Shown here: piece by piece, positions 26,579-36,600 of the stretch
Numbering within the stretch: position 1 is the stretch's first letter
Layout: every line of letters starts with the position of its first letter
DNA from: an uncultured Bacteroidales bacterium
Lineage (GTDB): Bacteria > Bacteroidota > Bacteroidia > Bacteroidales > UBA932
DNA length: 64,000 nt
NCBI GenBank assembly: GCA_944323345.1
Contig: CALUSC010000003.1
Coordinates: forward strand, 89,459 to 153,458
Direction: 5' to 3'
The notes under the pieces: model-generated
The model's database searches: none
What the model was told of the DNA's origin: nothing
Seen by the model: the letters and a program-made list of their open reading frames with translations, nothing else
Program-made: the position numbers and the translations under genes

Positions 26579-27775
26579 ATGGGAAAGATTACTGAAAAGA
26601 TAAGGTATGTAGGGGTAAACGACCTCAATAAAGTCATTTTCGAAGGAATGTGGCCGCTTCCGTTCGGCGTCACTTATAATTCATATCTGGTGGTCGATGA
26701 AAAAGTGGCCCTTATCGATACTGCGGAAGCGGGATTCGCTTCAGAATATATGGACAATATCCGTAAGGAACTCGGCGGAAAACAGATAGACTATCTGGTC
26801 GTCAATCACATGGAGCCCGATCATTCATCATTGATAAAGATGGTGCGTGATGCATATCCTGCAGTCAGGATTGTCTGCAACGCCAAGACTGTACCTATGA
26901 TAAAGGGGTATCACGGCATCAGTGAAAATCTTCACGTCGTAAAGGAAGGGGAAAGCATAAGTCTTGGAAACAGCACCCTGACATTTTACATGGCACCTAT
27001 GGTGCATTGGCCTGAGACTATGGTAACATACTTCAATGAAGAAAAGACCCTGTTTTCGGGAGATGCTTTCGGTACTTTCGGCGCAGTGGACGGCGGCATT
27101 ACGGATTCGGATGCCGGGCTGACGGGCTGTACGGACGGATGCCGTGACACATTCGATGCTTTCAAGGATGAAATGAGAAGGTATTATTCCAACATTGTAG
27201 GGAAATTCGGGCTTACCGTCCAGGCCGCATTGAAAAAACTGTCGGGACTCGAAATAGCCCGCATTTGCAGTACGCACGGACCGGTATGGGAAAAGAATGT
27301 CGGTGAAGTGGTCTCGTATTATGACCGGCTGAGCAAATATGAAGCGGAAGACGGCGTATGCATCGTATATGCTTCGATGTACGGGAATACCGCCCAGGCT
27401 GCAAAGGCCCTTTCAGCCGAACTGCAGAAAAGGGGAGTGCCGCATGTACTCCATAATCTTTGCACAGAGAACGTCTCGTACGCATACAGGGATGCCTTCA
27501 AATACAATACGCTTGTCGTCGGAGCACCTACTTACAATAACGACATCTTTCCGCCTGTCTACAATTTCATGTACGGAATTTCGGCGCGTCTTATGAAAAA
27601 CCGCCGTTTTGCAGCCTTCGGATCATTTACATGGGCAGGGGCCAGTGTCAGACTGATGAATGAAATGGCTTCCAAGCTCGGTTTCGAACTGCTGACTGAG
27701 GGTATATCATTCCCGCAGGCATATTCTCCTGAAAAATGCGACATGGCGGCTCTTGCTGATTTGATAGCAGAATAA
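26579..27775 (+). CDS. FprA-type flavodiiron protein
   Basis: This 398-residue protein reduces O2 to water, NO to N2O, or both, and protects anaerobes. The N-terminal metallo-beta-lactamase domain carries the diiron ligands: HMEPDHSS (His/Glu/Asp/His near 81-88), then His144 region APMVHWPETM, FSGDAFG and a later THGPVW. A C-terminal flavodoxin domain from about 257 (VYASMYGNTAQAAKAL) binds FMN. No rubredoxin or other fused electron donor is present. It has its own promoter and ends in a bidirectional terminator, facing the hdr/cysteate synthase operon. Confidence 0.93.
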   Translation: MGKITEKIRYVGVNDLNKVIFEGMWPLPFGVTYNSYLVVDEKVALIDTAEAGFASEYMDNIRKELGGKQIDYLVVNHMEPDHSSLIKMVRDAYPAVRIVCNAKTVPMIKGYHGISENLHVVKEGESISLGNSTLTFYMAPMVHWPETMVTYFNEEKTLFSGDAFGTFGAVDGGITDSDAGLTGCTDGCRDTFDAFKDEMRRYYSNIVGKFGLTVQAALKKLSGLEIARICSTHGPVWEKNVGEVVSYYDRLSKYEAEDGVCIVYASMYGNTAQAAKALSAELQKRGVPHVLHNLCTENVSYAYRDAFKYNTLVVGAPTYNNDIFPPVYNFMYGISARLMKNRRFAAFGSFTWAGASVRLMNEMASKLGFELLTEGISFPQAYSPEKCDMAALADLIAE

Positions 27776-27811
27776 AAAATTGCGGCGGATTTCAAATCCG
27801 CCGCAATTTTT
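27775..27811. terminator. Bidirectional terminator between the flavodiiron gene and mscS
   Basis: Two perfectly complementary 18-base arms (27775-27792 and 27794-27811) flank a single C. Each has a GC-rich core and an A/T run, so the hairpin ends in a U tract on either strand. It serves both the rightward flavodiiron gene and the leftward seven-gene operon ending with mscS. Confidence 0.92.
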
Positions 27812-27818
27812 CATTTAA

Positions 27819-28742
27819 TTAATCGCCAGTATTCAAGTGGACGTCGAGCTGAGGATAAGGGAACTGTATGCCGTTTTCCGGAATCCGGATATAGATTTTC
27901 TCATTGACCTCATACATGACATCCCAATAGTCTTCCTTTTTTACCCAGGCTCTGACTACGAACTGTACGCTACTGTCTCTCAGTGAGTTGAGAGCTATCG
28001 TCGGATTCGCAGGAGATTCCGGGGCATAGACTATCCTTTTCTCGTCGTCTACAATGGCTTTGAGTATGGTCTTTACTTTGTCTGACGGAGCCCCGTATTC
28101 CACGTCTACAAGCCACTCCAGCCTGCGGTAGACATTCTGCGAATAATTGTTGATGGTTCCGTTGGACAATGCCCCGTTCGGTATGATGATGTTCCTGTTG
28201 TCTGTGGTGGTTATTTTCGTGCTGACTATGGTGACATCGGTGACAATACCGCTATAGCCCTGTGCTTCGATGAAATCACCTGCCTTGAACGGCTTGAAGA
28301 CCAGCAGCATTATGCCTCCTGCAAAATTCTGCACAGTACCGCTGAGTGCCATACCTATAGCCATACCTCCTGCAGCAAGCAGAGCCGCGAGGGAAGTAGT
28401 ATTGACTCCGAGGGCGCTGATAGTGAAGATTACCAGGAACACCGTCAGGGAAATGCTTACAAGGCTTTCCACGAAAGACGCTATGGAGTGCTCTGTGTTC
28501 CTTCTGACGAAGATGTTGTGTACTATCTTTTTGATTTTCCTGATGATCCACGCTCCTATTATATAGATGGCAAGCGCAGCGAGGACTTTAAGCCCGAAAG
28601 CTATAGTCTTGTCTATAAATTCACTGAGCAACTGGTCTGCAGGTGTTGTGGTTATCTTTTCCACGAATTCCGCAGTCGCTTTTTCCAGATTCAGGGTATC
28701 AGGTATTTCCTTGACGGCCGCCTGAAGAAAATTCATTAACAT
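27819..28742 (-). CDS. MscS-family small-conductance mechanosensitive channel
   Basis: This 307-residue protein has an amphipathic N-terminus, membrane helices at about 46-68 and 88-112, and the pore helix TSLAALLAAGGMAIGMALSGTVQNFAGGIMLLV around 112-145. The beta domain (FKAGDFIEAQGYSGIVTDVTIVSTKI) and the mixed alpha/beta vestibule follow. The family opens under membrane tension to release osmolytes. It begins 12 bases after the cysteate synthase stop and is the last gene before the shared terminator. Release of an organic anion made by the operon is possible but speculative. Confidence 0.93.
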   Translation of the reverse strand: MLMNFLQAAVKEIPDTLNLEKATAEFVEKITTTPADQLLSEFIDKTIAFGLKVLAALAIYIIGAWIIRKIKKIVHNIFVRRNTEHSIASFVESLVSISLTVFLVIFTISALGVNTTSLAALLAAGGMAIGMALSGTVQNFAGGIMLLVFKPFKAGDFIEAQGYSGIVTDVTIVSTKITTTDNRNIIIPNGALSNGTINNYSQNVYRRLEWLVDVEYGAPSDKVKTILKAIVDDEKRIVYAPESPANPTIALNSLRDSSVQFVVRAWVKKEDYWDVMYEVNEKIYIRIPENGIQFPYPQLDVHLNTGD

Positions 28743-28754
28743 GGCATCTCGGAT

Positions 28755-30062
28755 TTAAAACAGTTTTTCTACTTTCGATATGATTTCATCTGCAGAAAGT
28801 GCAGGATCCAGAACCAGGTCAGGTTCGGCATAAACCACGTCCTTGTGCGATTTGGCCAGTTTCTCTCCGCCACCGGTAATATTGAGCATGATGAGCTCGT
28901 CTTTCCTTACGGCTCCGTCTTTTACGGCCTTGTCGAGGCTTGCCACAGCTACTGCGGCTGCGGAATATATGTCCACGCCTTCGAGAGAGAGGAACTTTTC
29001 TTTCCAGTAGTCAAGTTCATCATTGGAAATCATGTAGATGTCTCCAGTCGCATCTTTAAGCGCATCGTACACGCCGCCGGCGAGCGAATACGGAGGTTTC
29101 CTGTTCGAAAGGACCTTGGCCTTGATTATGGAGGCCTGTTCGCGCGCTTCTTCAGGAGTCAGCGGCACAAGCTCTCTCGAATCCGCTTTCCAGGAATCAT
29201 ACATGATGGTGAAGGGGGCATTCTGAGAAGGATACAGTCTCATTTTATGAGTGCCGAAACGCCCGTCGGCTATGAGCCTGAGGTTGTTTTCCCAAACGGC
29301 TATAGTCCCTGTACCGCTTCCGATGGCCTGGAAATAAGCGTCAGGAATCCTGCCGGTCTTTTCGACTGCCGACAGAATCGTGGTTCCCATTCCGTCCCTT
29401 CTTGCTATGTTCTTGGCTCCGCCTTCTGCGAGAAAACGGGAGGATGTACATACCTTGTCGCCGAGTGCGATGGCGTCGAAATAGTCCGCCCCTTTCGGTG
29501 CAGCAATGATTTTCACGCAGTCGTTCAGCGGTTTGTCGAACCACAACGCATTGATATTGTCTTCAGGGATACTCAGAAGCAGACGGATACCGTTGTCGGA
29601 GCATACCTTTGCGAATGCCCTTGCCGTGTTCCCGGCAGAAGCTACGACCAGAATCCTGTCCTCGTTTTCCGGCAGACGCGCGCATACGGAATAAGCCTCG
29701 GTTTCCTTGAACGAGCATGTCTGCATGAATGCTCCTATCTCAGGATAGTACCCGGAAAACGTGATGAAAAGGTTCTCCAGCCCCAGAAATTCTGCCAGAG
29801 CCTTGCTGCGGTACGTTACCGGAGGACAGGAGTTGGCCAGAGTCCTTTTTACGGGAAGCCAGTTTGCATATCTGTAGAAACCGTCCAGGTCATCCCTGAC
29901 TTCGAATTCTTTCTTTTCATATATTGCCCTGACCAGGGAAGGTGTCTTCCCCTGCGGGTCAGCCAATGTCCAGCCGGCGTCATCGAAAATCCTGCCGTCA
30001 GCACAATTCATCAGCCTGTAGTTGGTAGGTTTGAAGGTCATAATATCGTTTTGTTTACACAT
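28755..30062 (-). CDS. Probable cysteate synthase (threonine-synthase-like PLP enzyme)
   Basis: This 435-residue fold-II PLP enzyme could be labelled threonine synthase, but it lacks the TGSFKDRG motif. The PLP lysine is in QTCSFKETEAY (Lys119); the segments SGYYPEIGAFMQTCSFKE, VVASAGNTARAFAKV, EGGAKNIARRDGMGT and AIGSGTGTIAVWE fit, from memory of the family, the cysteate synthases of Methanosarcina and many Bacteroidales. Those make L-cysteate from O-phosphoserine and sulfite. In methanogens cysteate leads to coenzyme M; in Bacteroidota it could feed sulfonolipids. It starts 16 bases after the HdrE/D-like gene and 12 bases before mscS. ATG 30041 is an alternative start. Confidence 0.75.
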   Translation of the reverse strand: MCKQNDIMTFKPTNYRLMNCADGRIFDDAGWTLADPQGKTPSLVRAIYEKKEFEVRDDLDGFYRYANWLPVKRTLANSCPPVTYRSKALAEFLGLENLFITFSGYYPEIGAFMQTCSFKETEAYSVCARLPENEDRILVVASAGNTARAFAKVCSDNGIRLLLSIPEDNINALWFDKPLNDCVKIIAAPKGADYFDAIALGDKVCTSSRFLAEGGAKNIARRDGMGTTILSAVEKTGRIPDAYFQAIGSGTGTIAVWENNLRLIADGRFGTHKMRLYPSQNAPFTIMYDSWKADSRELVPLTPEEAREQASIIKAKVLSNRKPPYSLAGGVYDALKDATGDIYMISNDELDYWKEKFLSLEGVDIYSAAAVAVASLDKAVKDGAVRKDELIMLNITGGGEKLAKSHKDVVYAEPDLVLDPALSADEIISKVEKLF

Positions 30063-30078
30063 TCATGATAAATAATAC

Positions 30079-31941
30079 TCAGTTTCTGCCGGGCCCGGAG
30101 CACTTGTCGAGAACCTGGGCAATGTCCGTTACAGGTCTGTCTGCATACCTGCTGAAAGTAGTCATGCAGAGAGGGCAGGCCGTCACGATTTCATCCGGAG
30201 AGTCTGCCGTAAGGTTGGCCAGTGCATTTTCCGTCATTGCCTTTCTCTTGTCGAAACTGAGTGTCAGGCTTCCCAGACTTCCTCCGCAGCAGATGCTTTC
30301 TTTCCTGTTCTTCGCCGCTTCGACGAGTTCTCCGGCCGAAGATATGACGTTCCTCGGTTCATCATAGACTCCGCATCCTCTGCCGAGTTCGCAAGGGTCA
30401 TGGAAAACGTATCTGGTGCCGCCCTTGCGTACATCCAGTCTGCCGGTCCGTATAAGTTCGTCGAAATATTCCGTATGGTGGATTACCCTTATTCCCGGAA
30501 GGGCATAATGTTCCCTGAATATCTTGTAGCATATCGGACATGACAGCAGCAGGGTATCAGCGCCGGAACCCATGATGATTTCCGTGTTCTTTTCAATCAA
30601 CTGCCTGGCCTGGTCGAATCTGCCTGCCATCAGCATCGGTCTGCCGCAGCAAATTCCTCCGTCCCTGTCCATTATTTCGTAGTCCGTACCGGCCTTGGAA
30701 AGGATGGATTCCGTTGCTTTCCTGATAACGGGCGTCAATGCAGTCATACATCCTGCAAAATATAGAACACGTTCTTTATCAGGATTTGAAACAGAAGTGT
30801 TATTATTGTTAACAAATTTGTTACAGCGCAAAATCTCCTCCGATGCCGAAATATTCGAATAGTCCGAACCGAAATTATACTTGCGGACAGAGCGTTGCGC
30901 TATGCGCAGTTTGTCGCCTTCGACCCCGACAGGACAGATTGCGGTGCACTTCCCGCAAAGCAGGCACTTGTCGCTGATTTCCTCGATACGGGCTTCATTG
31001 TTACGGCGTATCTGGCGGTTCAGATATACTGTCGTATCCTTGATATTGCCTTTGAGAACCCCCATAGGGCAGGCATCGATGCAGAGGCCGCAGCTCGGAC
31101 ATGAGTAGACCTGGGCCTTGGCGAAACCCTTTCTGGCATTGACTATCTTTATCCCGGCATTGCGGAATGGAATGAGCAGGATTTCGGTAGGGATGTGCAT
31201 GTATCTCGTGAACGGAAGCACGACGAAAAATATGCCGAGGGCACATGAATACGCCCACCACGCCGGAAGCATGTTGGCATGGTTGCTCAGGAATTCCGTG
31301 AACACATAGTTCAGGGATTTGGTAAGGAATGATCCTCCGCTGATATCTGCCGTGAACGACTCGGCCAGCAGACGGAGCGGAAATATTGACCATAGCGAAT
31401 ATTGTCCGATAAGGTCCAGAAAGCTGGGATTCGTAGTCCTCCGCATTCCGAACAGTCGGGAGCGTACGCGTTTGATGATTGCCAGAGCAATGCCGCTAAG
31501 TACCACAAGCAGGAAGAAGTCCATCAGGAAGAAAATGAGGGCTCCCTTCATGGTACTTTCGGTTTCCGCCACGAAATACCTGAAAAAGATAGGGTAGTAC
31601 AGAGCCTTGGCCCCCAGATCGGATGTATAGAGAAAGACTTCGATATGTCCCACGACGATCAGCATGAACCATCCGAAAGCTATGCTGGAATGCATGTATC
31701 CGAGCAACTTGTTCCTTTTCCAGATGTCTACATGGATCAGACACTTCAGGAATATGTCCTTAATGTTCTTCAGGAGAGTCTTCGGCGTTATGAGCGATAT
31801 GAAAAACTTTTTCCTGTCTTCGGCAGGCAGCTGCATTATAATCCGGACGAGGCCCACGAGGCAGTACCCCAACACGAAAAGCATGCCGCATACGAACGGC
31901 AGTACGAAGTCGTTATATCCGGTCAGAAATCTTTCTCTCAT
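30079..31941 (-). CDS. Membrane-anchored HdrE/HdrD-like iron-sulfur fusion protein
   Basis: ATG at 31941 overlaps the previous stop as ATGA and gives 620 residues; longer in-frame starts would lie inside the preceding ferredoxin gene. Five or six N-terminal helices (about 12-35, 82-105, 135-160, 230-250) resemble the NarI/HdrE heme b anchor, with histidines in GYMHSSIAFGW and VGHIEVF. Two [4Fe-4S] motifs follow (CPSCGLCIDACP and CLLCGKCTAICP). Then come two full CCG domains: AGCM...GGICCGRP...SCPICY and DPC...SICCGGS...ACPLC, the signature of HdrD/DsrK catalytic subunits. It should link the quinone pool to thiol or disulfide chemistry. Confidence 0.85.
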   Translation of the reverse strand: MRERFLTGYNDFVLPFVCGMLFVLGYCLVGLVRIIMQLPAEDRKKFFISLITPKTLLKNIKDIFLKCLIHVDIWKRNKLLGYMHSSIAFGWFMLIVVGHIEVFLYTSDLGAKALYYPIFFRYFVAETESTMKGALIFFLMDFFLLVVLSGIALAIIKRVRSRLFGMRRTTNPSFLDLIGQYSLWSIFPLRLLAESFTADISGGSFLTKSLNYVFTEFLSNHANMLPAWWAYSCALGIFFVVLPFTRYMHIPTEILLIPFRNAGIKIVNARKGFAKAQVYSCPSCGLCIDACPMGVLKGNIKDTTVYLNRQIRRNNEARIEEISDKCLLCGKCTAICPVGVEGDKLRIAQRSVRKYNFGSDYSNISASEEILRCNKFVNNNNTSVSNPDKERVLYFAGCMTALTPVIRKATESILSKAGTDYEIMDRDGGICCGRPMLMAGRFDQARQLIEKNTEIIMGSGADTLLLSCPICYKIFREHYALPGIRVIHHTEYFDELIRTGRLDVRKGGTRYVFHDPCELGRGCGVYDEPRNVISSAGELVEAAKNRKESICCGGSLGSLTLSFDKRKAMTENALANLTADSPDEIVTACPLCMTTFSRYADRPVTDIAQVLDKCSGPGRN

Positions 31942-32273
31942 TTCATGTCCTCCCCGTAAATCCTGCAGATCGACAGGATAAGATGCCTGGTATTTATGCC
32001 CCGCGGACATACCATGGAGCATTTTCCGCACAGCATGCAGTTTTTCATCATGGCAATGACTTCCTTTTCCTTGCCCCTCTGGAGTCCGAGAATGACTTTC
32101 CTGACACTCATGCCTGAAAATCTGTTGGCCGGACAGGTGGACGTACATGACCCGCAGGCCATGCATTTATACACGTCCGGTTCCGCCCGGTGCAGTTCCG
32201 CGAACTTTTCCGTATCTACCTTGTCCAGGTTGATGGCGGAACTTGGTGATAATTTGAACCCGAAATCCATCAC
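31938..32273 (-). CDS. HdrC-like two-cluster ferredoxin
   Basis: This 111-residue protein has two classical [4Fe-4S] motifs: Cys37, 40, 43 and 47 (CMACGSCTSTCP) and Cys79, 82, 85 and 89 (CMLCGKCSMVCP), separated by helical sequence as in HdrC. It overlaps the HdrA-like gene upstream and the HdrE/D-like gene downstream by ATGA each, so the three are made in fixed ratio. It probably carries electrons between the flavoprotein and the membrane subunit. Confidence 0.85.
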   Translation of the reverse strand: MMDFGFKLSPSSAINLDKVDTEKFAELHRAEPDVYKCMACGSCTSTCPANRFSGMSVRKVILGLQRGKEKEVIAMMKNCMLCGKCSMVCPRGINTRHLILSICRIYGEDMK

Positions 32274-33286
32274 TTCTTCATTATGTACAGATGAATTTTC
32301 AGAGCTGCGGCACGTGCTTCCGCCAGAGTTTCAGGCACTGTTTTCGGTCCCGTACAGGCCCCGGCATAGAAGATACCTTCCTTAGGGGAGTCTATAATGT
32401 CCGCCACGTTGTCCGCGGACTTCAGGAAACCGTCGGAATCGAGCGGAAGTTTGATCATGTTTGCCACCTTTGTGCTGTCCTGGCTGCAGACCATTCCTGC
32501 CATCAGTACCAGGAGATCGAGAGTCACCTTGACCGGTTTCCCGGACAATGTGTCTTCGGCCTTGACTATCACTCTTCCGTCAATGTTCTCGCTGACTTCC
32601 GAAACCCTGCCTCTGATGAAACGGATACCGTAGTCTCTCTGCGCCGAAATGTAGAAATCTTCGTATTTTTTCCCGAACATCCTCAGATCCATGTAAAAAC
32701 AGTAGACCATGGCTTCAGGAAATTTCTGTTTCATCTCGATAGCCTGCTTAACCGCAGTAATGCAGCACACTTTCGAGCATTGCGAATTCCTGGCTTTCTC
32801 GTCTCTGGAACCGACGCAGTGGACGAATCCTATGGCATTCATGGCACTGTCATTCACCCTCCTGTCATCGCCGGTATTGAACCAGTGTTCCAGATCTTTG
32901 TTCGTTATGACCTGGTCGTAGACCCCGTATCCGTATTCTTCTTTTTTGGATGCGTCGAAGACTGAAAAGCCGGTAGTCACGAGCATGATTCTGGTAATTA
33001 TGGATATACCGTTGGACAGCATGATGTTGTAACTGTCCTGAAGTTTGTTTACAAACGATATTTCCGTATTCAGGAATATATTTGCATCAGCGGCTTTAGA
33101 TATCAGGGCGCTTACTATATCCCCGGCGGGAGTCATGTCCGGGAAAAGGCAGTTCCAGTCGGCCACATGGCCTCCGAGGTGATCGCTTTTTTCTATGATT
33201 ATCGGCTTGTATCCGAGATCGAGCAGCTGGCACGCAGCTTCAAGTCCGGCTATACCGCCGCCTATTATTACTATGTTTTCTTTCAT
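32270..33286 (-). CDS. HdrA-like FAD-binding subunit
   Basis: ATG at 33286 opens the dinucleotide-binding motif directly (MKENIVIIGGGIAGLEAA); an in-frame ATG 18 codons upstream is not needed. The 338-residue product is a compact HdrA: FAD-binding GGGIAG (9-14), the HdrA hallmark GFVHCVGSRDEK with Cys157, 170, 174 and 175 for a [4Fe-4S] cluster, and a C-terminal GIFYAGACTGPKTVPETLAEA. It lacks the extra ferredoxin domains and C-terminal extension of methanogen HdrA, and is closer in size to QmoA. Whether it bifurcates electrons cannot be told. Confidence 0.85.
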   Translation of the reverse strand: MKENIVIIGGGIAGLEAACQLLDLGYKPIIIEKSDHLGGHVADWNCLFPDMTPAGDIVSALISKAADANIFLNTEISFVNKLQDSYNIMLSNGISIITRIMLVTTGFSVFDASKKEEYGYGVYDQVITNKDLEHWFNTGDDRRVNDSAMNAIGFVHCVGSRDEKARNSQCSKVCCITAVKQAIEMKQKFPEAMVYCFYMDLRMFGKKYEDFYISAQRDYGIRFIRGRVSEVSENIDGRVIVKAEDTLSGKPVKVTLDLLVLMAGMVCSQDSTKVANMIKLPLDSDGFLKSADNVADIIDSPKEGIFYAGACTGPKTVPETLAEARAAALKIHLYIMKK

Positions 33287-33330
33287 TCCAGATTCGGTTT
33301 CAGTAACGTTAAAAGTGTCGGCCCGGCATT

Positions 33331-34401
33331 TCAGCAGCACCTCAGGACTCCAGGCAATTCCGGCCGCATCAGGTCTTTCTCGTTCAGACCCTTGTATTTC
33401 TCTTTAGGATCATATTCGATTCCGATTTTGTCCAAAAGCGGCTCAACGGCTACCTGGTGCAGCTGAAGTCCGATATCCCACGGATTATAGCCCAGTACCA
33501 GCGATGCGAGCTCCTCGTATGTGAGGACCGGAATGCCGTATCCGTTTTCCCCGTATGTCTTTCCTTCGGTCTCGGCTATTACATACTGCCACCTGTCCAT
33601 GAAATAAGGACAGCCGGGACAGTTCGTCAGGATGAAGTCAGGGTGGTACGGTTCCATGGATTCGAACTTCTTGTATGTATTGGAAAGCGAATATCCTCTG
33701 TTTGCCTTGACATGGTACTGGCGGAATCCGTATCCGCAGCAGTGGCGTCTCTCAGGGTAATCTATCACGTTTCCTCCCCATGATTCGATCATGCCGCACA
33801 GGACATAAGGGTATTCAGCGCCTCCGACGCCTCTGGCCGGGAACATCTTGGCGTAATGGCATCCGATATGTTCCACCACTTTGAGGGGTTCTCCAGTGAA
33901 CCTGTTTACGAGGCGGAATTTCGCCCTGGCGGCTATCTCATTCCGGTATTTGTAAATGAGGTCGCTGGCATGCGCCACGTATTTCGGTTTGTTGAACTCC
34001 CGTTTGCAGGCTTTCCACAGCATTTCCCTGATTCTGGTTTCCAGTTCAGGAAATTCCTTCCAGGTTTCCAGTATTTCTATGTAGTTTCCGAAAGATGTGA
34101 TGCATGATGCCACATAGTTTTCATAACCGGCCTCTGTCATGAGCGCGAACTGTCTGGCCACTATGGTCATAACGGTTTCCTGCGGGATAGTGTCGCAGTG
34201 ATATGCGATTCCTCCGCATGTCGTATGGTGCTCGGTCTCGAAAATGTCCTTTTTCAGAAGTCCGCGGCATATTTCCAGAAACATCTTCTCCGCTCCCGGA
34301 AAGAAATTCTGCCGGATACAGCTTCTTACATAAAACCAGTGGTTGTCAGGAATTTCTTTCTGATAATCCGCCCATATTTTCTGTTTCCCCTGATATATCA
34401 T
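33331..34401 (-). CDS. HdrB-like CCG-domain protein with one degenerate motif
   Basis: This 356-residue protein resembles HdrB, the catalytic subunit that holds non-cubane [4Fe-4S] clusters. The second CCG motif is intact: Cys181, the HCCGYGF pair Cys221-222, and NCPGC with Cys261 and 264. The first is altered: Cys28, then TTCGG (Cys62, with Thr in place of the first Cys of CCG), Cys69 and Cys100. So one catalytic cluster is likely kept and the other may be lost or changed. A last Cys-Cys ends the protein. It starts 16 bases after the HdrC-like gene and stops 44 bases before the HdrA-like gene. Confidence 0.78.
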   Translation of the reverse strand: MIYQGKQKIWADYQKEIPDNHWFYVRSCIRQNFFPGAEKMFLEICRGLLKKDIFETEHHTTCGGIAYHCDTIPQETVMTIVARQFALMTEAGYENYVASCITSFGNYIEILETWKEFPELETRIREMLWKACKREFNKPKYVAHASDLIYKYRNEIAARAKFRLVNRFTGEPLKVVEHIGCHYAKMFPARGVGGAEYPYVLCGMIESWGGNVIDYPERRHCCGYGFRQYHVKANRGYSLSNTYKKFESMEPYHPDFILTNCPGCPYFMDRWQYVIAETEGKTYGENGYGIPVLTYEELASLVLGYNPWDIGLQLHQVAVEPLLDKIGIEYDPKEKYKGLNEKDLMRPELPGVLRCC

Positions 34402-34417
34402 CTATATTGTCTTCAAA

Positions 34418-35116
34418 TTAATCTTCATTATTCAGATGGCCTTCGGAAGTGTGCTCGAAAGTCTCCCTGAAGTACTCTTCCATATCCATCCCCATTTCTT
34501 CGGCCTTGGCTTCCGAGAATCTGTTTACGGTCTCTATCCGCTCGGTACCTCCGGTGACATCGAAAATGCTTTTCAGCTCATCGAGAGATTCCTGCGGGAT
34601 TTTTCTCAGGATACCCGGACCGTTTCCCTTGAAATTGGCGCCGAGGCGCGCCATGGAGTCATCAATGTGTTCCAGATGCCATTTCCATACAGGACCTGAT
34701 TCCTTGTGATCCTCCCATTTGAATGTGTCCGGATAAACGCAGTATCCGTAATTCAGGATATTTCCCGTAAGAAGTCTGGTAAGAGGGTAGAGCTGACGTC
34801 CCTTTTCCGAGCAGGTAAAATAGCCGAGTCTGGCGGAAAGGCTTCTCAGAGCCATAATTACGAGTCCGGGACCGTTCTTTCTCGGACAGCGGGTGACGCA
34901 GGACATGCATTCCCCGCAGTACCAGATGAAATCGCTCTTGAGCAGTTTTTCTATTTCTTCCTCATCCCGGCTCTGGACTATGTCCATGACTTTTCTGGGA
35001 TCGTATTTATAGAATTCGGCTGCAGGGCAGATAGCGGTGCAAGTCCCGCAGTTTATGCATGTTTTGAGACCTTCCTTCGCCCTGTAGTCTTTCAGCAGTT
35101 CGTCGTATAATTTCAT
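34418..35116 (-). CDS. HdrC-like two-cluster iron-sulfur protein
   Basis: ATG at 35116 gives 232 residues and places the first cluster normally; a longer in-frame frame to 35152 runs into the promoter. Two [4Fe-4S] motifs lie at Cys20, 23, 26, 30 (CINCGTCTAICP) and Cys67, 70, 73, 77 (CGECMSCVTRCP). The remaining 150 residues are longer than in HdrC and are predicted helical and acidic. It is the first gene of the operon, paired with the HdrB-like gene, as hdrC-hdrB in methanogens. A TATATTTG box at 35150-35157 precedes it. Confidence 0.83.
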   Translation of the reverse strand: MKLYDELLKDYRAKEGLKTCINCGTCTAICPAAEFYKYDPRKVMDIVQSRDEEEIEKLLKSDFIWYCGECMSCVTRCPRKNGPGLVIMALRSLSARLGYFTCSEKGRQLYPLTRLLTGNILNYGYCVYPDTFKWEDHKESGPVWKWHLEHIDDSMARLGANFKGNGPGILRKIPQESLDELKSIFDVTGGTERIETVNRFSEAKAEEMGMDMEEYFRETFEHTSEGHLNNED

Positions 35117-35149
35117 AATAAAAAATAATCGTGGCAAACACCGAAACTG

Positions 35150-35157
35150 CAAATATA
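35150..35157 (-). promoter_or_regulatory. Predicted -7 box of the hdr/cysteate synthase operon
   Basis: Minus-strand TATATTTG fits TAnnTTTG, 33 bases before the HdrC-like start codon at 35116 and just beyond the rlmD stop. A -33 TTTG is not evident. No other clear promoter box is seen between here and the terminator at 27775-27811. Confidence 0.55.
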
Positions 35158-35167
35158 GAAAATATTT

Positions 35168-36583
35168 TTATAACACCGTTTTCAGTTCCAGTGCGACCAC
35201 ATTTTCGACGTGGTGGGTATGAGGGAACATGTCGACCGGACGGACGGCGGTGATTCTGTATTTGCTGCAGAGGACGCTCAGATCTCTGGCCTGCGAAGCC
35301 GGATTGCAGCTTACGTAGACTATTCTTTTCGGGGAAGCGTTCAGGATCACTTCCGCGACATCGGGATGAATGCCGGCACGCGGAGGGTCGAGAATGACTA
35401 CATCAGGTTTGCCGTGACCCGCTATGAAATTGTCCGTCAGGACATCTTTCATGTCTCCTGCGATGAATTCGCAGTTTTCTATCCCGTTGTTCAGGGCATT
35501 GGCCCTGGCATCTTCTATTGCCTCCGGCACATATTCTATACCGATTACCTTTGCCGCCTTTCCGGATATGAACTGTGCAATGGTTCCGGTGCCGGTGTAA
35601 AGGTCGTAGACTGTTTCGCTGCCGCTGAGAGCTGCAAATTCGCGTGCCGTACAGTAAAGTCTGTATGCCTGCAGCGAATTGGTCTGGTAGAAGGATTTCG
35701 GGCCGATCCTGAATCTGAGTCCTTCCATCTCTTCATATATGGCGTCGTCACCTTTATATAATATGCATTCCTGGTCGGCTATGGAATCGTTCGCCTTTCC
35801 GTTTATGACGTACCACAGCGATTTTATGGCCGGGAATTCGGCCGCAACGGCATCCAGAAGCGATGTCCTGGCTTCTTCGTCTTCATGGTAGAAACACATG
35901 ATCAGCATGATATCGCCGTGAGTATTGTTTCTGATGACCATGTTCCGCAGGAAACCTCTGTGGTTTCTGATGTCGAAGAATTCCAGACCATGTTCTACAG
36001 CATACCGACGTATGAAAAGACGTATCCTGTTCGACGGTTCTTCCTGAAGCCAGCAGTGTCTGATATCCAGGACCTTGTCGAAGAACCTGCCTACGTGGAA
36101 GCCTAATCCTGCCCTGGCTTCGGGCGCTATTTCATCCGGGTTTTCCCCGGTTTCAAGCCATCTGCGGCTGGAAAATGTAAATTCCAGCTTGTTTCTGTAG
36201 CATGTAGTCTTTTCTGAAGGAATTATCGGCTGGATTTCAGGTACTTCCAGGTGACCTATGCGCACGAGCTGGTCGTAAACCTGCTGCTGCTTGGCCTGCA
36301 GCTGCATATCGTAGGGGAGTGGCTGCCATTTGCAGCCTCCGCATATTCCGAAATGTTCACAGAAAGGTTCAAGCCGGTGGACCGAAGGCCTCACTATTTT
36401 CAATATGTAGCCTTCCATGTAATTCTTTTTCTTCTTCGTCACTTTGACGTCCACGATGTCGCCGGGAACTGCGAACTGTACGAACAGAACGGCCCCGTCT
36501 ACTCTCGCAATAGCTTTACCTTCGGCCGCAACAGATTCTATTTCAATGTTTTCCAGAATGATGTCCTGTTTTTTCCTTCCCAT
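35168..36583 (-). CDS. rlmD: 23S rRNA (uracil-C5)-methyltransferase, RlmD/RumA type
   Basis: ATG 36583 (MGRKKQDIILENIEIES) is preferred; the frame can be extended only to a TTG three codons earlier. The 471-residue enzyme has an N-terminal TRAM domain (residues 5-62), the [4Fe-4S] cysteines in CEHFGICGGCKW, a central domain, and the SAM fold with DLYTGTGTIAQ and DPPRAG. The catalytic cysteine is in VYVSCNPAS. It methylates a uridine of 23S rRNA. Related enzymes modify tRNA U54, so the target is not certain. A TATTTTTG box lies at 36601-36608. Confidence 0.9.
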   Translation of the reverse strand: MGRKKQDIILENIEIESVAAEGKAIARVDGAVLFVQFAVPGDIVDVKVTKKKKNYMEGYILKIVRPSVHRLEPFCEHFGICGGCKWQPLPYDMQLQAKQQQVYDQLVRIGHLEVPEIQPIIPSEKTTCYRNKLEFTFSSRRWLETGENPDEIAPEARAGLGFHVGRFFDKVLDIRHCWLQEEPSNRIRLFIRRYAVEHGLEFFDIRNHRGFLRNMVIRNNTHGDIMLIMCFYHEDEEARTSLLDAVAAEFPAIKSLWYVINGKANDSIADQECILYKGDDAIYEEMEGLRFRIGPKSFYQTNSLQAYRLYCTAREFAALSGSETVYDLYTGTGTIAQFISGKAAKVIGIEYVPEAIEDARANALNNGIENCEFIAGDMKDVLTDNFIAGHGKPDVVILDPPRAGIHPDVAEVILNASPKRIVYVSCNPASQARDLSVLCSKYRITAVRPVDMFPHTHHVENVVALELKTVL

Positions 36584-36600
36584 AAAATTCAAATTTGCTG

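Follow-up and report, generated by a model that had tools for sequence, protein, structure and literature searches.

An Hdr-like redox operon joined to cysteate synthase in an uncultured Bacteroidales bacterium: a candidate source of sulfite for sulfonolipid synthesis

Introduction

Complexes of the heterodisulfide reductase (Hdr) type have been described from methanogens as HdrABC (solved chains 5odc, 9sfi and 8rvu) and from Hyphomicrobium denitrificans as the sHdr complex. The part of PMC6067878 that defines the sHdr gene set gives it as hdrC1-B1-A-hyp-C2-B2, and the complex of Hyphomicrobium releases sulfite, as stated in a section of PMC12423496. Sulfite is also the second substrate of cysteate synthase, which is outlined in part of PMC12713407 as eliminating phosphate from O-phosphoserine and then adding sulfite. 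Here we analyse a predicted operon that brings the two together, in a stretch of 64,000 nucleotides (the window) from an uncultured Bacteroidales bacterium of the family UBA932 (assembly GCA_944323345.1, contig CALUSC010000003.1, positions 89,459 to 153,458). Five Hdr-like genes, hdrC1-B-A-C2-ED, are followed on the minus strand by cysS, for a cysteate synthase that depends on pyridoxal phosphate (PLP), and by a gene for an MscS-family channel.

Sequence comparisons give good support to reading HdrC1-B-A-C2-ED as an Hdr-like complex of five subunits that is linked to quinone and functions in sulfonolipid synthesis. Its most likely role would be to make sulfite for CysS, a reading to which we assign a probability of about one half. 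It looks like a known kind of complex in a seemingly new biosynthetic role. The Bacteroidota sulfonolipid pathway comprises cysteate synthase, cysteate-C-fatty acyltransferase (CFAT; SulA/CapB) and 3-ketocapnine reductase. All three occur here or in the clusters of relatives; what differs is that an Hdr complex stands beside the pathway genes. According to part of PMC11211663, the sulfonolipids of Bacteroidota associated with humans are believed to influence health. A literature search, conducted mostly at the level of listings, found no paper on the source of sulfite in anaerobes lacking PAPS/APS reductase and none containing both 'sulfonolipid' and 'heterodisulfide reductase'; the word sulfite does not occur in the main texts of PMC9304779 and PMC11211663. 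The linkage of Hdr, CysS and CFAT is a concrete and testable candidate for sulfite supply in such anaerobes. If the reading is true, Hdr-type sulfur oxidation would move out of energy metabolism and into the making of lipids, and the candidate pathway genes to be added would be hdr, those for the glyoxalase-like VOC protein and an alternative PLP enzyme, and FNT or SulP carriers.

Results and Discussion

Hdr-like subunits and their cofactor residues

Looking at the operon proteins, none reached the curated cut-off of a canonical Hdr model, and they are best called Hdr-like. HdrC1 (34418-35116; 232 aa, two [4Fe-4S] motifs) scored 77 bits against NF041779 HdrC, under the cut-off of 350, and HdrB (33331-34401; 356 aa) scored 124 and 113 bits against HdrB models, also under their cut-offs. 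The compact HdrA-like flavoprotein (32270-33286; 338 aa, ATG start, one [4Fe-4S] motif) gave 257 bits against the HdrA2 model, whose cut-off is 1100, and aligned end to end with the solved chain 6tjr (196 bits), which we take to be the HdrA-like subunit of H. denitrificans.

Conservation of the cofactor residues was scored over 49 to 62 sequences per subunit, the window's own included. The eight cluster cysteines of HdrC1 and C126 are invariant (60 sequences), as are the four cysteines of the HdrA [4Fe-4S] motif (C157, C170, C174 and C175; 59 sequences) and the eight cysteines of HdrC2 (49 sequences), a second HdrC-like dicluster ferredoxin of 111 aa (31938-32273). Pfam finds the CCG domain once in HdrB; both this intact domain (C181, C221, C222, C261 and C264) and an N-terminal CCG set reduced to three cysteines (C28, C62 and C100) are invariant in 62 sequences. 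HdrED (30079-31941; 620 aa) joins an HdrE-like membrane domain to a dicluster part and two CCG domains, both recognised by Pfam. Its two CCG sets and dicluster cysteines are invariant among the aligned relatives, and so are H70, H84 and H249 of the membrane part. Altogether, the cofactor residues of the Hdr subunits are intact, save for the reduced N-terminal set of HdrB.

The AlphaFold2 model of HdrED (pLDDT 89.9) has as its best fold match in the PDB the EtfD of Mycobacterium smegmatis (9ojn, E 2.1e-19), which we take to be an ETF:menaquinone oxidoreductase, that is, a menaquinone-reducing enzyme. The coupling to quinone proposed in the initial annotation of this DNA is plausible, since the best solved match of the HdrED model is this EtfD. 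We infer sulfite formation, the direction of the electrons, menaquinone as acceptor and a sulfur carrier, in the following scheme. Reduced sulfur (sulfane or sulfide) on a thiol carrier would be oxidised at the CCG/noncubane Fe-S sites of HdrB and HdrED, and the electrons would pass through the HdrA flavin and the HdrC clusters to HdrED, which would hand them to menaquinone. The released sulfite would be used at once by CysS, together with O-phosphoserine, to give cysteate, and CFAT and a short-chain reductase (SDR) would turn cysteate into the sulfonolipid backbone.

The same conserved CCG sites suit the opposite direction, and CCG-domain enzymes are classically disulfide reductases. In a reductive complex, electrons from menaquinol or a cytoplasmic donor would serve to cleave a thiosulfonate, be it S-sulfocysteine, thiosulfate or a Bunte salt, giving a thiol and sulfite for CysS, and the linkage of HdrB, CysS and CFAT described below would apply to it as well. 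We consider such a reductive complex unlikely, given that the best fold match of HdrED is presumably a menaquinone-reducing enzyme and that, by its redox potential, menaquinol would be too weak a donor for thiosulfate unless HdrA bifurcates.

Oxidation to sulfite is also the proposed outcome in sHdr, which the complex resembles in the 338-aa HdrA that matches 6tjr end to end; a compact HdrA with one [4Fe-4S] site is a feature of sHdr. The C1-B-A-C2-B2-like gene set and order agree with sHdr in part: a hyp gene is absent, and the B2-like CCG subunit at the end carries an HdrE-like membrane domain fused to it. A further difference is the neighbour, a biosynthetic enzyme. LbpA was found neither among the seven genes nor in the genome (88% complete), and for this reason we do not file the complex as sHdr. 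With methanogen HdrABC it shares a homologous HdrA core, the CCG domain of HdrB and the HdrC diclusters; HdrA, however, has 338 aa as against 643-671 in the solved chains, HdrB has a single intact CCG domain, and no equivalog score for Hdr was reached, so that we do not assign it to canonical HdrABC. HdrED resembles membrane oxidoreductases of the EtfD/HdrDE/DsrMK type in its transmembrane domain with invariant histidines, its dicluster and its two CCG domains. Unlike in EtfD systems, there are no Etf genes among the seven, and the donor is presumably HdrC2.

Cysteate synthase and its linkage to hdr

CysS (28755-30062; 435 aa) scored 444.7 bits against TIGR03844, above the equivalog cut-off of 324.9, and 565.5 bits against the solved cysteate synthase 9k3c, compared with 42.6 bits for the best threonine synthase; the threonine synthase models stayed far under their own cut-offs. 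These scores rule out a threonine synthase, and the initial annotation, which had read the PLP enzyme as a cysteate synthase, was right on this point. CysS is therefore predicted to make cysteate from O-phosphoserine and sulfite. The cysteate synthase of Methanosarcina belongs to the same equivalog family, and the single control genome above the TIGR03844 cut-off is, judging by the tally, that of M. acetivorans. There the enzyme feeds coenzyme M, as the relevant part of PMC12713407 has it, whereas here CFAT accompanies CysS in 46 of 46 genomes of the window's family and in 35 of 37 of the order.

These counts come from a family sample of 99 genomes in 25 genera and an order sample of 149 genomes, with families numbered to f119 (below, G, L, C and g mark our genomes, loci, contigs and genera). 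Six genomes with weak HdrB matches only were scored as lacking HdrB, CFAT was called at E of at most 1e-100, and the co-occurrence tests were made without correction for phylogeny. In the family, CysS over its cut-off is found in 46 genomes, HdrB in 41 and CFAT in 55. CysS and HdrB occur together in 35, and in 31 of these, from 8 genera, they lie within 10 kb of each other. The initial annotation held that the link would fail if the two halves were rarely adjacent in related genomes; within the family they are mostly close together. In the four exceptions, HdrA-HdrED-CysS are kept together with HdrC1-B elsewhere (G176), the Hdr locus ends abruptly inside HdrED (G159), or CysS and HdrB are apart (G212 and G242). 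HdrED and CysS are on the same strand in all 29 loci compared; the gap between them has a median of 24 bp and exceeds 92 bp in a single locus. The link is not order-wide, however: of the other 36 CysS genomes of the order, only G008, from the window's genus, has Hdr near. The neighbours of CysS outside the family, inspected by eye, included nothing recurrent or sulfur-related.

The last gene of the operon is less constant. It encodes a 307-aa MscS-family channel (27819-28742; NCBIfam and Pfam) and is a lineage-specific operon end: among the fetched loci, MscS follows CysS only in 7 relatives that belong to genus g147 or to the same genus as the window, and a SulP-family carrier occupies this position in 10 other fetched loci. 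It is therefore not a fixed part of the operon, and the earlier suggestion that MscS releases the product is unsupported. The tie of the operon to CFAT is stronger, and that of MscS and of CysS outside the family weaker, than first stated.

Tie to the acyltransferase of sulfonolipid synthesis

In L075, the acyltransferase next to Hdr scored 542 bits against 7u7h, 540 bits against 28eh, which was deposited as a cysteate-C-fatty acyltransferase, and 232 bits against serine palmitoyltransferase; 7u7h is SulA of Alistipes finegoldii, as given in part of PMC9304779. In the family, each of the 41 genomes with HdrB also carries CFAT, and HdrB is absent from all 44 genomes that lack CFAT (Fisher 3.8e-16). 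Counted by genus (both, HdrB only, CFAT only, neither), the figures are 13/0/3/9 (p = 1.1e-4). In the order, CFAT is present in 49/50 genomes with HdrB as compared with 59/99 without it (p = 5.7e-8). The initial annotation had linked the redox module to cysteate or sulfonolipid metabolism; the comparisons support this, and the tie reaches CFAT and, in some relatives, the reductase and an alternative PLP enzyme.

In the window's genome, CFAT lies away from the Hdr operon, on contig C11 (G000:C11), shares 73% identity with that of L075 and is adjoined by an SDR, a putative 3-ketocapnine reductase. This genome thus holds both CFAT and a 3-ketocapnine-reductase-like SDR, the pair by which we recognise a sulfonolipid locus. 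In this genome and in G008, CFAT and SDR are followed by a 430-aa protein without NCBIfam match (L144:11081-12373), a tentative candidate for N-acylation.

Alternative gene clusters

CFAT lies close to HdrB in few genomes of the order sample (G041, G081, G108 and G141) and in 4 of the family. The clusters come in several orders. L075 and L078 read VOC-CFAT-SDR-HdrC1-B-A-C2-ED-CysS, and similar clusters occur among named metagenome-assembled genomes (MAGs). Loci of other families contain a PLP enzyme that we call PALPalt: CFAT-PALPalt-SDR-VOC-HdrC1-C2-ED-B-A in L127, CFAT-PALPalt-HdrC1-B-A-C2-ED in L128 and CFAT-PALPalt-Hdr-SDR-VOC in L126, with a fourth order, Hdr-CFAT-PALPalt-SDR-VOC, in L218 and L226.

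We define PALPalt by a score of 84-134 bits against TIGR03844; it is found in 31 genomes order-wide and is beside CFAT in many (L128:9912-11141, L127:14450-15670, L146:10377-11600 and others). Among solved structures it comes closest to threonine synthases (80 bits), with 47 bits to 9k3c. None of the 38 genomes with CysS contains it (p = 3e-5), and CFAT is present in 27 of the 31 PALPalt genomes, within 11 kb in 12 of the 27. Because it never occurs with CysS and so often occurs with CFAT, PALPalt is probably a second cysteate synthase.

VOC is a two-domain glyoxalase-like protein often found ahead of hdrC1 or CFAT (L127:12169-13239, L075:14000-15079). A scan of named genomes covered the best 80 loci of at least 552 confirmed relatives, many of them cut by contig ends. 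All 80 were titled as Bacteroidota taxa, many from rumen or gut, and they include Ca. Cryptobacteroides choladohippi and a Marinilabiliales MAG. Among these best 80, CFAT is present in 43 and HdrB in 31 (both in 20), and CysS in 19 and PALPalt in 26, with none holding both. HdrC1 is present in 43, often directly after VOC, which would also fit a complex that acts in sulfonolipid synthesis at a redox or thiol step other than sulfite supply, perhaps with VOC. The glyoxalase-like fold of VOC lends something to this idea, although it says little on function, and VOC had no sequence match in the PDB. The window's genome has no VOC match, so that VOC is not a necessary part, and the direct partner of the complex there is the sulfite-using CysS; we therefore regard this other step as improbable.

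The HdrB tree separates a CysS-linked clade, which includes the window's family, from a clade linked to CFAT, PALPalt and VOC, with unlinked rows between. It is this tree that suggests kinship to Ca. Cryptobacteroides. The VOC-derived rows were drawn for linkage, 9 of them with only VOC nearby, and for this reason the number of linkage origins is only indicative. In 27 of the 93 rows, neither CysS, CFAT, PALPalt nor VOC lies within about 9.5 kb, as might be expected of a general anaerobic electron-transfer or detoxification complex that came to stand beside CysS by chance and was retained by descent; that the co-occurrence statistics ignore phylogeny is also in its favour. Such a chance neighbourhood is nevertheless very improbable, since CFAT is present in nearly all HdrB genomes of the order although 41 of the 149 genomes lack it, and since linkage is seen in two HdrB clades with differing gene orders and PLP enzymes, albeit with VOC-scan rows drawn for linkage.

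Sulfite supply

We then return to the complex as a sulfite maker for CysS. PF01507 (PAPS/APS reductase, CysD) had no match in the window's genome (88% complete) or in 6 sampled congeners. Strong PF01507 matches (>150 bits) occur in 2 of the 41 HdrB-bearing family genomes, and any match over the cut-off in 7 of the 41 and in 5 of the 14 CFAT-bearing genomes without HdrB. Since PF01507 is absent or rarely strong in the window's genus and in HdrB-bearing genomes, the route by which sulfite is usually made seems to be lacking.

In some genomes without Hdr, other genes stand beside CysS. G223 and G235 read MarR-FNT-CysS-SulP, FNT being a formate/nitrite-type channel, and G157, G194 and G210 of the same genus read MarR-Hdr-CysS-SulP. 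In G200, DsrC, DsrM/K-like, cysteine desulfurase and KamA-like genes precede CysS; the other two CysS-bearing genomes of its genus agree, but across contig breaks. Going further, and with somewhat less than even confidence, we propose that an LbpA-independent, menaquinone-coupled Hdr may be a dedicated anaerobic sulfite maker, solely for cysteate and sulfonolipids, in Bacteroidales without sulfate assimilation. Depending on the genus, the slot beside CysS would be taken by Hdr, a formate/nitrite-type channel or a module of DsrC, DsrMK-like proteins and cysteine desulfurase.

Several observations weigh against sulfite supply by the complex. Outside the window's family, Hdr is beside CysS in 0/35 genomes, some with short contigs, and 15 of these 35 hold HdrB elsewhere. 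The order-wide association of HdrB with CysS is not significant (17/33/20/79 for both, HdrB only, CysS only and neither; p = 0.07), nor is it within the CFAT-bearing genomes of the order (p = 0.68). In the family, 14 of the 55 CFAT-bearing genomes lack HdrB. Strong PF01507 is found in just 1 of these 14, as compared with 2/41 above, and replacement of Hdr by sulfate assimilation is therefore unsupported. Neither FNT over its cut-off (10 of the 99 family genomes, 4 with HdrB) nor DsrC (10 of 99, 5 with HdrB) is an exclusive substitute. Hdr is also dispensable, because genus g152 has CysS and CFAT without Hdr and with no visible substitute beside CysS; its member G203 has an FNT channel elsewhere in the genome. 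Finally, the window's genome (88% complete) contains no LbpA and a single GCV_H match, and has no match to DsrC, which is thereby rejected as the sulfur carrier of this organism. Since neither LbpA nor DsrC was found, the complex has no known sulfur carrier. The GCV_H match adjoins genes resembling gcvT and those for lipoate ligase and lipoamide dehydrogenase, by eye a glycine-cleavage operon.

Other sulfur-related genes were seen in the fetched loci. In L123, from an order genome, the module has upstream of it a TusA-like gene as well as another HdrA-HdrA-HdrC set (by eye). L107, L108 and L109 have a second hdrC1-hdrB pair without hdrA, which in L107 and L109 adjoins Mrp-type ATPases and a CoA-disulfide-reductase-like protein (360.7 bits, under the cut-off) with, by eye, a rhodanese-like C-terminus. 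The order DsrC, DsrM-like, DsrK-like, cysteine desulfurase is present in L233, L234, L237, L239 and L240, with no DsrAB seen nearby by eye; genera g141 and g148 as well as G238 have this module. L245:8746-14614 (G235) has DsrC-like, DsrE-like and HdrC/HdrA-like genes and one for an SQR-like flavoprotein (by eye).

Operon architecture and flanking genes

The seven leftward open reading frames span 27819-35116 and are all open. Their order by NCBIfam and Pfam (HdrC, HdrB, HdrA, HdrC, HdrE/HdrD-type fusion, cysteate synthase, MscS) and their spacing, with gaps of at most 44 bp, agree with the initial annotation. From HdrC1 to MscS the junctions are 16 bp, 44 bp, two overlaps, 16 bp and 12 bp. Three ATGA overlaps or near overlaps had been reported; HdrC2 and HdrED overlap by an exact ATGA, and HdrA and HdrC2 share a start/stop overlap.

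In front of the operon, the box TATATTTG (35150-35157, minus strand), possibly of the Bacteroidota -7 box type, is indeed present. Its value as a promoter element does not stand out, since the window has no clear excess of such boxes over chance (35 seen, 28.8 expected, standard deviation 5.4) and there is no TTTG 18-22 bases before this one. Upstream, the gene rlmD (35168-36592) runs in the same direction and stops 51 bp short of the hdrC1 ATG, so that transcriptional read-through from rlmD into the operon is possible. Behind the operon, the predicted terminator was found as a terminator-like hairpin of 17 pairs (27775-27811), which also faces the gene on its other side. This gene, at 26579-27775, encodes a flavodiiron-type protein and converges with the Hdr operon upon the common terminator.

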